DNA of 62,902 nt from a virus. The stretch is taken from positions 1-62,902 of the IMG/VR virus record IMGVR_UViG_3300042691_038517, one strand, 5' to 3'. Numbering within the stretch: the first letter of the stretch is position 1; each line of letters begins with the position of its first letter. The translations under genes were made by a program, and so were the position numbers. The notes beneath the pieces are model-generated. The model was not told where the DNA came from. It saw only the letters and a program-made list of their open reading frames with translations, and did not search any database. Positions 14,584-38,446 of the stretch are shown piece by piece.

Positions 14584-14612
14584 TTGATGCCTCAATCCAC
14601 TTTTGATATAAT
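14584..14612 (+). promoter_or_regulatory. promoter of the 155-nt RNA
   Basis: TTGATG, 17 bases, TATAAT; predicted start near 14619, just before the 5' strand of the closing helix. Confidence 0.75.
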
Positions 14613-14618
14613 AATATC

Positions 14619-14785
14619 TTAGAAATTAACAAAGAACCCCAATCGGGAATGGCTTAATGAATACCGTGTGATTACTCAACCGGTGCCAGTTCTGCCCAAG
14701 CAGCCGCAACCACTAACCAGTCACTGAATGACGTCTCACCTGCGAAGCTAGTCTATGGGAAACGATTGGAATTTCTTTGTTGATT
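14619..14785 (+). ncRNA. structured RNA closed by a 16-bp helix, unknown class
   Basis: AACAAAGAA (14628) pairs with TTCTTTGTT (14773), and CCAATCG (14639) with CGATTGG (14763), enclosing 117 nt with internal stems such as CTGC-CCAA-GCAG and GTCA-CTGAA-TGAC. A consensus promoter stands directly before it. No protein frame. It is not a tRNA and does not show the single long hairpin of 6S RNA. Class unknown. Confidence 0.65.
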
Positions 14786-14808
14786 CTTTTCCTTGATTAC
14801 TGTATAAT
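14780..14808 (+). promoter_or_regulatory. promoter of the large structured RNA
   Basis: TTGATT, 17 bases, TATAAT; its -35 box overlaps the end of the preceding RNA's closing helix. Confidence 0.8.
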
Positions 14809-14997
14809 ACTTATATAAATTAATAGATTGGGTGACAGCGGACACAGCGATATATTACTGCTATGTGATACCGTCTTAATTGTGGGAAATCACCGAGCCA
14901 CAGCCCTAAAGAATTCGGTGTTATGAGACCAGCTCTGTGCGCATCTGGATAACAACTTAATTGGTGGCGAAGGCCTCTACCACCAGCCAACTTACAT

Positions 14998-15072
14998 GCT
15001 CCCGTCGTCTACTGGCTAGGACGCTGCCCTTTCAAGGCGGAAAAGACGGATCGAAACCGTTCGGGAGTACCA
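14998..15072 (+). tRNA. tRNA-Glu (anticodon TTC)
   Basis: Cloverleaf with acceptor GCTCCCG/CGGGAGT (first pair G-U), loop CTTTCAA-type with TTC, and encoded CCA. It lies inside the large structured RNA, apart from the main tRNA arrays. Confidence 0.88.
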
Positions 15073-15710
15073 ACCCTCTGATGAGCACATGCAAGTTGTG
15101 CGAAACCTTAAACCTCAGCAACAGTTTGCAGCGATCTTCCCAAATCGCTCGCTGGCGCAGTTTAGGGTCAGGATGAAAACCCAGACTTGTTCTGGAAATG
15201 AGTAATGCTAGGGAACCGTCCCTATATCCCATGTCGTCTTATCCTGTACCCACGTTAAAAGGTCTTATAAATAGCTAGTGTGGCGGACTATATAGTGCCC
15301 GAGCAATAACAACCCGTAAGGTTGTTCGACCCTAAACTGCAGAGGGTTCGTAAAATTATCTAGTCGGAGCCAACCGTAACAAAGCACGACCCCAAACCAC
15401 ACAAGGGTCATTAAAAATTATGTGAGGTTGCTAAGCGGTGGACCCGTAAGCCGACAAAGCCCAAAGTCGCAAAAAATGTGGTGGGGTGAAGACCCGAACC
15501 AATACTGTAAGTCACGGATATCCTGGACAATGCCCGAGACGCACCCAGGACTGAAACGTGCAACCCAAACTCCCCACAAAAGACAAGCGTACTCTGGAAT
15601 TAACCACAACACCAGGCACGACTGCTATACTTTAGGGTCAGGTAGTAAGAGTCGGAGTTGGTTACTCCGCAGTAATGTTCCTGAACAGAGTAAAAAACCT
15701 CGAGAGTTCA

Positions 15711-15750
15711 AAAGCCCCTGCGCAGTCGCCCTGCCAGGGGCTTTTGTTTT
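15711..15750. terminator. terminator of the large RNA; also faces LP7
   Basis: AAAGCCCCTG and CAGGGGCTTTT with a 14-base loop, then GTTTT on the plus strand. A leftward LP7 transcript would meet the same hairpin. Confidence 0.85.
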
Positions 15751-15778: not shown

Positions 15779-15815
15779 CGCCAAATTATACCAGTGGGTA
15801 ACCTATCCTGTCAAG
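15778..15815 (-). promoter_or_regulatory. leftward promoter repeat LP7
   Basis: Minus strand: TTGACA, 18 bases, TGGTATAAT, TTGGCGC. Confidence 0.75.
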
Positions 15816-15865
15816 TGGATATTCACTTATCTGACCCTAAGCCGTGGCAAATTCGAGGCAATAAA

Positions 15866-15897
15866 AAAGCCCCATTATCCGAAGATAGTGGGGCTTT
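15866..15897 (-). terminator. terminator of the leftward helix-turn-helix gene
   Basis: Leftward: GCCCCACTATC, TTCG loop, GATAATGGGGC, then TTTTTTATT. A very stable UUCG-capped stem. Confidence 0.9.
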
Positions 15898-15919
15898 GCT
15901 GCATTTAACAAAAATTAAG

Positions 15920-16246
15920 TCAAATTTTGTCCGATTGTGTCGATTTAGGGTCAGATAAAGCACGCTCAATCATTACCAGCACTGTTTTGTTCACCTTTTC
16001 CAGCGATTCCAGCAATTCTAGGTTGGTGTTGAGCAAATGTGCAATTCGTTCGATGTGCTCTGACTTTTTAACTGGAATTTCACCGCGCTTGTTGACATAT
16101 GACTTTTTTTGGTACACCCCGAGGCTGCTCAGCTTGGCAATTACGCTCCGCTCTGGCACGTCAAGCTCTAAAGCTAGGTCCGGCACCGAAACACCTGCAG
16201 TGTACTGTTGGACCATGTGGTCACAAATTTCTTTGGTATAACGCAT
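15920..16246 (-). CDS. helix-turn-helix paralog 4 (opposite strand)
   Basis: A 108-residue diverged family member: MRYTKEICDHMVQQYTAG, LALELDVPERSVIAKLS, then VYQKKSYVNKRGEIPVKKSE and a C-terminal SLEKVNKTVL module matching the other copies. The ATG follows a strong GGGAGG site. It is transcribed away from the other copies and follows the 270-residue unknown gene, one base apart. DNA binding is inferred. Confidence 0.75.
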   Translation of the reverse strand: MRYTKEICDHMVQQYTAGVSVPDLALELDVPERSVIAKLSSLGVYQKKSYVNKRGEIPVKKSEHIERIAHLLNTNLELLESLEKVNKTVLVMIERALSDPKSTQSDKI

Positions 16247-37727: not shown

Positions 37728-37988
37728 ATGTTTAGAACTACAGTACAGTGGGCTACAAAGTCAGATTTGTACGATAACGAACAATTTGTTTCTGAAAGAA
37801 GAGCATTTTTAAACAGTTTAGTAGCAATAGAAAAAACCACAGGTATACCGACTATTAATAACACTAATTTTAGTGCAACTATTGAATTTCAGGACGAAAC
37901 CAGTGCACAACAGTGGTTAGACTACGTTACAAGTTTAGCAGAAAAATACGGTAAAACAATTGTTTCTAAAACTATAGAAGCAATTTAA
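37728..37988 (+). CDS. unknown 86-residue protein
   Basis: Small protein (TTVQWATKSDLYDNEQFVSE, SAQQWLDYVTSLAEKYG). It ends just before the acceptor piece of the tmRNA. Function unknown. Confidence 0.6.
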   Translation: MFRTTVQWATKSDLYDNEQFVSERRAFLNSLVAIEKTTGIPTINNTNFSATIEFQDETSAQQWLDYVTSLAEKYGKTIVSKTIEAI

Positions 37989-37994
37989 TTATGG

Positions 37995-38362
37995 TTGTAT
38001 GAAGCAACGAGAAAAGTGTCTTGGACGCGGGTTCGACTCCCGCCTGGTCCACCAGAAAACTTTCTGAGTAACTACACTGGAACAACTGAAATACTTGCGA
38101 ATTCTAGACAGAGCAAGGACCAGCCAGGAAGATGGGTTACCGTGGTTTCAAGTACCTCAGAGAGTTTCCTAATGGGCCAGTCATGGTTTCGACAGGGCAA
38201 AGAGTAAAATAGCAGACAACTCGGCAATGTGAAAGCCGTAGGGTTGGGGATTCCTGGCCGCAGCAGCAAAACAAAAATAAACGCAAACGATCAAGTTTAC
38301 GCATTAGCAGCTTAATTGCCGCTTAGGGTTCTGCCAGTTCCTCGTAACAGAATACTGGCACT
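37995..38362 (+). ncRNA. ssrA: circularly permuted (two-piece) tmRNA
   Basis: The acceptor piece comes first: T-arm GCGGG-TTCGACT-CCCGC, CTGGTCC-A-CCA ending at 38054. The tag piece follows: GGGCCAG (38174), which pairs with CTGGTCC, then TCATGGTTTCGACAGG and the tag frame 38283-38315 encoding ANDQVYALAA-stop. The intervening loop ends pair (GAAAACTTTCTGAG at 38055 with CTCAGAGAGTTTCC at 38156), extending the acceptor stem. A final hairpin TGCCAGT/ACTGGCA ends the tag piece. It would rescue stalled ribosomes; SmpB must come from the host. Confidence 0.9.
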
Positions 38363-38366
38363 ATAC

Positions 38367-38446
38367 TTTAATACTCTGGTCAGCACTGTGAGAAGCGCAG
38401 ATCGACAAGACTAGAACTGGGTTTGAATCCTAACTAGAGTATTAAA
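38367..38446 (+). repeat. 11-bp inverted repeat with tRNA-like remnant
   Basis: TTTAATACTCT pairs perfectly with AGAGTATTAAA around 58 bases holding GGGTTTGAATCC, a T-arm-like sequence, but no CCA. Either a decayed tRNA or the 3' processing stem of the tmRNA. Confidence 0.5.

Follow-up and report, generated by a model that had tools for sequence, protein, structure and literature searches.

A candidate family of large T5-like phage non-coding RNAs with a built-in hammerhead ribozyme and an optional tRNA-Glu

What does a phage genome encode in a stretch of about 935 nt that holds no protein gene? The stretch spans positions 14815-15750 of the window, by which the whole analysed DNA of 62,902 bases is meant, an IMG/VR virus record that derives from an uncultivated T5-like freshwater phage and whose genome is incomplete. 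The window carries a T5-like gene set (terminase, portal, DNA polymerase, DnaB-like helicase and D5-like regulators), together with a split NAD-dependent DNA ligase and a T5 p143-like tail protein, and its nearest cultivated terminases, at about 50% identity, are those of T5-like Vibrio phages. ARAGORN and Rfam place 25 tRNA genes in the window, plus a permuted two-piece tmRNA of betaproteobacterial type (37962-38406, + strand) with the tag ANDQVYALAA; the tmRNA tags of relatives are ANDTQFALVA, ANDTQFALAA and ANDEVFALAA. The original prediction described the stretch as a structured RNA with an embedded tRNA, GOLLD/ROOL-like, or as possibly a new class. Its features, with those found in the present analysis, are as follows.

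14584..14612, + strand: upstream tandem promoter P1, TTGATG-N17-TATAAT, 10/12 match
14780..14808, + strand: promoter P2, TTGATT-N17-TATAAT, 10/12 match, conserved in homologs, predicted start ~14815
14829..14905, + strand: 5′ domain, GGGUGACAGCGG...ACGUCUUAAUUGUGG...CCGAGCCACAGCCC, with a predicted pseudoknot (16 distinct homologs aligned)
14912..14997, + strand: hairpins upstream of the tRNA, pairing kept and sequences differing across homologs (by inspection)
14998..15072, + strand: tRNA-Glu (anticodon UUC) with encoded CCA, an optional insert (ARAGORN; Rfam tRNA, 49 bits)
15075..15172, + strand: type I hammerhead ribozyme (consensus core, covariation, shuffle test)
15075-15077/15170-15172, + strand: hammerhead stem I
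15078-15084, + strand: hammerhead core CUGAUGA
15085-15089/15097-15101, + strand: hammerhead stem II
15102-15104, + strand: hammerhead GAA
15105-15112/15161-15168, + strand: hammerhead stem III
15167-15169, + strand: hammerhead triplet GUC, predicted cleavage 15169^15170 (C15169/A15170)
15170..15750, + strand: predicted 3′ product of ~581 nt, with a small structured domain, hairpin repeats and the terminator
15326..15444, + strand: two similar ~60-nt units with CGACCC...GGGUC hairpins (alignment against shuffles)
15631..15644, + strand: second copy of the cleavage-strand motif UUUAGGGUCAGG, strongly conserved, without its own ribozyme core
15709..15750, + strand: intrinsic terminator, symmetric, which could also act leftwards
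15785..15814, - strand: leftward promoter TTGACA-N18-TATAAT, 12/12 match, conserved in nearly all homologs

The stretch forms a non-coding transcription unit of its own, preceded by a promoter and closed by an intrinsic terminator. In particular, the consensus promoter of the original prediction corresponds to P2, a sigma-70-like site that recurs in the same form upstream of nearly all homologs, and most homologs have an equivalent of P1 some 170-200 nt farther upstream; overall, the homologs have promoters of TTGA-N-TATAAT form, usually two in tandem, with a conserved terminator downstream. The claimed terminator is a 12-bp stem (15709-15720/15735-15746) with a T-rich tail, kept in most homologs whose loci reach far enough. 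The element contains ORFs of 64-112 codons on both strands, none of which matches Pfam, and its homologs are riddled with insertions and deletions, so that a protein-coding region was rejected and the earlier observation of a structured RNA free of protein genes was confirmed. The leftward promoter just past the RNA would yield a short antisense RNA against the 3′ end of the element. Weak Rfam matches at 15860-15946 are merely another terminator hairpin.

The many stems that had been noticed are supported mainly by covariation among aligned homologs. The full-length fold is modestly better than its shuffles (z = -1.98), and the case for structure therefore rests on comparison. The 5′ domain is nearly invariant except in its variable hairpins; two pairs of its predicted loop-loop helix show compensatory changes, and its other helices are invariant, hence uninformative on covariation (16 distinct homologs). 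Near position 14912, homologs may carry an optional insert of ~170 nt, of which there are at least three types. Farther downstream, a small domain (15195-15265) contains covarying hairpins, and in the variable 3′ half short hairpins with CGACCC...GGGUC elements follow one another, among them the two 60-base units already described (15326-15385 and 15385-15444), whose alignment scores 9.5 against a maximum of 7.5 in 500 shuffles.

The assignment to GOLLD or ROOL fared differently. The Rfam search returned no match to either model in the window at gathering thresholds, and none in the element at E ≤ 10; tRNA is the only Rfam family that covers the element. The GOLLD model (RF02032), whose cut-off is 150 bits, is silent on the window record and gives only chance matches of 3.9 and 4.4 bits in eight relatives, elsewhere in the genomes; its best score, 4.4 bits, falls outside the element in two relatives. 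The ROOL model (RF03087) finds nothing in the window or the eight relatives, and its genome-level controls were silent too. Membership in either class was therefore rejected, while covariation among the homologs upholds the wider description, a structured RNA of large size that is conserved in phages and has a tRNA embedded in it. The likeness to GOLLD lies in general features: both are large, structured and phage-encoded, in tRNA-rich genomes, with an optional tRNA inside, and some GOLLD members carry the tRNA in a variable linker (PMC12286853). In contrast, GOLLD by description has a universally conserved 3′ region, whereas here the 5′ domain and a ribozyme are constant and the 3′ half is variable. 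ROOL is likewise a large structured RNA of phages or prophages, often near tRNA islands, but its model is silent here. The full-text literature, at its incomplete coverage, yielded no report that places a hammerhead within a phage GOLLD or ROOL RNA. The best reading of the sequence comparison is that these large non-coding RNAs, with the hammerhead they contain, form a new family in phages, set apart from GOLLD and ROOL by the model test; the fallback of the original prediction, a new class, fits better than its first choice.

That hammerhead was overlooked in an otherwise correct feature list. By sequence comparison, it is a complete type I ribozyme in the middle of the RNA, directly 3′ of the tRNA's CCA end, with predicted cleavage. 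Published criteria comprise the core C3-U4-G5-A6-N7-G8-A9, G12-A13-A14-A15, U16, H17 and the pairs next to the core (PMC3088659). All of these were found in the window and again in each of the 27 distinct homologs that were tabulated, including the core-adjacent pairs N10.1-N11.1, N1.1-N2.1 and A15.1-U16.1 and three stems with stem I open; the cleavage triplet across the 27 ribozyme sequences is of the NUH type, either GUC or GUA. The most conserved patch of the element (15072-15106) is the hammerhead core itself, CUGAUGA-hairpin-GAAA, and the strand that matches it, GUUUAGGGUC^AGG, lies at 15160-15172. A second ribozyme at the 15631 repeat was rejected, as no core was found.

Covariation is present in all three stems. 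Across 19 aligned homologs, 98.4% of the hammerhead stem cells pair, falling to 41-44% when the pairing partner is slid by one column; both sides have changed in 8 of the 16 pairs, with 34 such cells against a shuffle mean of 9.9, and the covariation score is 0.388 compared to 0.152 in shuffles. Further, RNAalifold without a supplied structure returns the same three-way junction and a long structured stem III, with compensatory support for 18 of 27 pairs. The window contains one such hammerhead, while equally strict ones occur in none of 200 dinucleotide-shuffled windows, and a loose definition yields 0.015 per shuffled window. Among the Rfam hammerhead models, only Hammerhead_3 responds to the element, with 15.7 bits against a threshold of 48.5, and the ribozymes of distant relatives are similarly below threshold. 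A long stem III combined with a short stem I, just 3 bp before an internal loop in most members, may fall outside these models, whose score is no defining feature of hammerheads in the literature. Compared to the type I hammerheads of phages and prophages described by Perreault et al. (2011, PMC3088659), the consensus core, GUC triplet, open stem I and phage setting are shared. Those examples flank prophage genes, whereas the present ribozyme is part of a large, conserved non-coding RNA that has a promoter and a terminator to itself, and differs in its long structured stem III and in the optional tRNA at its 5′ edge.

The family was assembled from a terminase search of viral contigs that gave 499 relatives, 80 of which were kept; by blastn, about 20 loci among these 80 match the region in conserved patches, and a neighbour-gene search and two pattern scans enlarged the set to 27 distinct ribozyme sequences. 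The element thus has at least 27 distinct relatives, found in uncultivated T5-like phages, and keeps a constant position between a D5-like gene (+ strand) and the gene of a small predicted DNA-binding protein (- strand). Among the best blastn hits to cultivated phages there were tRNA matches only, and neither hammerhead, 5′ domain nor repeat motif was found in most of Vibrio phage D254 and of Klebsiella phage Sugarland. A pattern scan for host genomes produced a single match in a genome collection, at an unrelated site in the MAG of a Nitrososphaeria archaeon (L222, JARVJZ010000003.1), where a core resembling that of a hammerhead is joined by matching stems. Two loci (L029 and L083) are the two ends of one 100,412-base contig and hold non-identical copies of the element, either in tandem or through an assembly effect.

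Natural variants show which parts of the element can move or be lost. The core of L039 is re-formed with an enlarged stem II, with stems I and III still pairing (by inspection); L049 and L055 are without the 5′ domain; and L085 has the 5′ domain and no recognisable ribozyme, indicating that the ribozyme is not indispensable in every phage. In the distant relatives L086-L088, the ribozyme stands immediately before the terminator, while in L158 the tRNA is followed by a separate promoter and, shortly downstream of that promoter, a hammerhead, which puts the ribozyme at the 5′ end of the downstream RNA. In terms of ARRANGEMENTS in nature, the ribozyme is used next to either RNA end, and this is the best hint at its function, which we infer to be the definition and protection of RNA ends. 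Apart from this family, many unrelated phage contigs (L093, L095, L097, L107, L110, L111, L118, L119 and others) have a hammerhead right after a promoter-like sequence and right before a start codon, as if trimming an mRNA's 5′ end, and L145 (IMGVR_UViG_3300036832_001810) has five hammerhead-pattern matches within 12 kb, a possible multi-ribozyme operon.

The tRNA-Glu noted at the outset proved to be a complete cloverleaf, and it is absent from many homologs; in L014 and L063, the sequence equivalent to window position 14994 abuts that of 15072, so that the tRNA is cleanly missing. Where present, the embedded tRNA is always Glu(UUC), with its CCA near or directly at ribozyme stem I. At least four different versions of tRNA-Glu occupy the site, with differing copies of the L021/L029, L020, L158 and L108 types. 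The window's copy is 100% identical (75/75) to the tRNA-Glu in the tRNA cluster of the relative G007, whose own RNA gene holds no tRNA; in the window's cluster, the Phe and Ile genes lie 9 nt apart with no Glu between them, a place occupied by Glu in five relatives, and two relatives (G005 and G006) have tRNA-Glu both in the cluster and embedded. These varied copies, the identity to G007 and the double occurrences indicate, by comparison, that the tRNA is an exchangeable, optional insert that was probably acquired more than once. In L012 and L084, an element of ~65-80 nt upstream of the ribozyme fills the tRNA-less site; it resembles a degenerate tRNA by eye, a candidate that was set aside as Rfam gave it no support.

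Overall, sequence comparison establishes the family, its structure, the consensus and covariation of the ribozyme, the optional tRNA, the promoter and the terminator; it is likely, on this basis, that the large non-coding RNA made from this phage locus undergoes self-processing by its built-in hammerhead. Transcription would begin at P2 (~14815), possibly also at P1, and end at the terminator (~15750). The 5′ domain, tRNA and hammerhead would fold before cleavage, and the hammerhead would then cut between C15169 and A15170, giving a 5′ RNA of ~355 nt (pseudoknotted domain, hairpins, tRNA-Glu and ribozyme body, with a 2′,3′-cyclic phosphate end) and a 3′ RNA of ~581 nt that starts with a 5′-hydroxyl and contains the hairpin repeats and terminator. 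Host RNase P and 3′ trimming would release the tRNA, leaving two stable RNAs. The likely purpose of the cut would be to define and protect RNA ends and to separate two functional RNAs, neither of which would have a normal 5′-triphosphate or terminator end at the junction; an RNA ligase or kinase able to reseal such ends was not found among the main ORFs of the incomplete window genome. Produced in the course of infection, both would most likely act as stable structural or decoy RNAs. That cleavage occurs is suggested by the retention of core, triplet and core-adjacent pairing in all 27 tabulated homologs, which implies selection for it; its timing, the stability of the products, the protection of their ends and the roles of both RNAs are inferred.

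The predicted full-length fold bears on whether the ribozyme is free to act. The probability of stem III is 0.93 when 15064-15180 is folded alone, 0.06 in 14815-15200 and near 0 once 15328-15340 is included. The latter segment is a perfect 13-nt complement of the cleavage strand (15157-15169) and dominates the predicted full-length fold; free-energy folding of long transcripts leaves out tertiary contacts and folding order. The complement, together with a size, phage origin, optional tRNA and conserved multi-domain structure like those of GOLLD, would suit a one-piece cage or scaffold RNA of GOLLD/ROOL type, with the tRNA in a linker and an inactive or mostly inhibited hammerhead. However, neither covariance model matches, the ribozyme's catalytic features are maintained throughout the tabulated homologs and a strong version of the long complement is limited to some family members (including L029 and L083; in many members it is no better than shuffled controls), which together make a one-piece RNA unlikely. 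A conserved 'anti-ribozyme' switch was likewise rejected as a family feature, and in some phages the complement may act as a gate on the ribozyme or bind the cut end anew. In a bolder version, the element would form a large phage RNA class of its own, in which the cut frees the 3′ end of the 5′ half (GCAGUUUAGGGUC) and 15328-15340 in the 3′ half recaptures it, a ribozyme-gated assembly that we regard as distinctly doubtful; the window shares the long complement with L029 and L083, differs from L083 there in a compensatory way, and the complement is not family-wide. If true, the two parts left after cleavage of the precursor would work together as an RNA machine, in which the domain next to the cut, a tRNA or something tRNA-like, could be exchanged; the four or more tRNA-Glu versions seen at that site are compatible with this.

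Two other explanations place the function outside a self-cleaving RNA. The motif TTAGGGTCA/TGACCCTAA has 11 copies on both strands of the window (15162, 15632, 15832, 15945, 17228, 17714, 26970, 41038, 45623, 49445 and 55193), one of them, at 45.6 kb, within the spacer of a promoter-like site and another adjoining the leftward promoter, and is possibly a regulator-binding site. Such copies, and the predicted DNA-binding proteins encoded on both sides of the RNA, would accord with a locus that is mainly a DNA element, regulator-binding or origin-like, of TTTAGGGTCAG repeats, to which RNA structure is secondary; but stem covariation and compensatory changes in a catalytic RNA motif are an RNA-level signature, and the tRNA, promoter and terminator all lie on one strand, leaving the DNA element very improbable. 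It is scarcely credible that the hammerhead acts in trans on phage or host RNAs with UUUAGGGUC^A sites: the genome does have several such sites to which stem III could pair, but they lie on both strands with no consistent mRNA orientation, and stem III changes between phages in step with the cis strand, as cis cleavage predicts.

Self-cleavage in cis within a dedicated RNA gene, as favoured here, bears on two questions of phage biology. Hammerhead ribozymes have been found repeatedly in phages, where their role is an open question (PMC3088659, PMC6155905), and they were proposed to act by cleaving long transcripts of phages (Perreault et al. 2011, PMC3088659). Here, the hammerhead is fixed inside a conserved, stand-alone large RNA gene, and natural variants put the ribozyme before the terminator or after the promoter, making the end-forming hypothesis directly testable in a small system. 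Moreover, the element would join GOLLD, to which it has no sequence relation, as a second type of large phage RNA that can hold an exchangeable tRNA, and thus bears on the question of why phages place tRNAs inside large RNAs.
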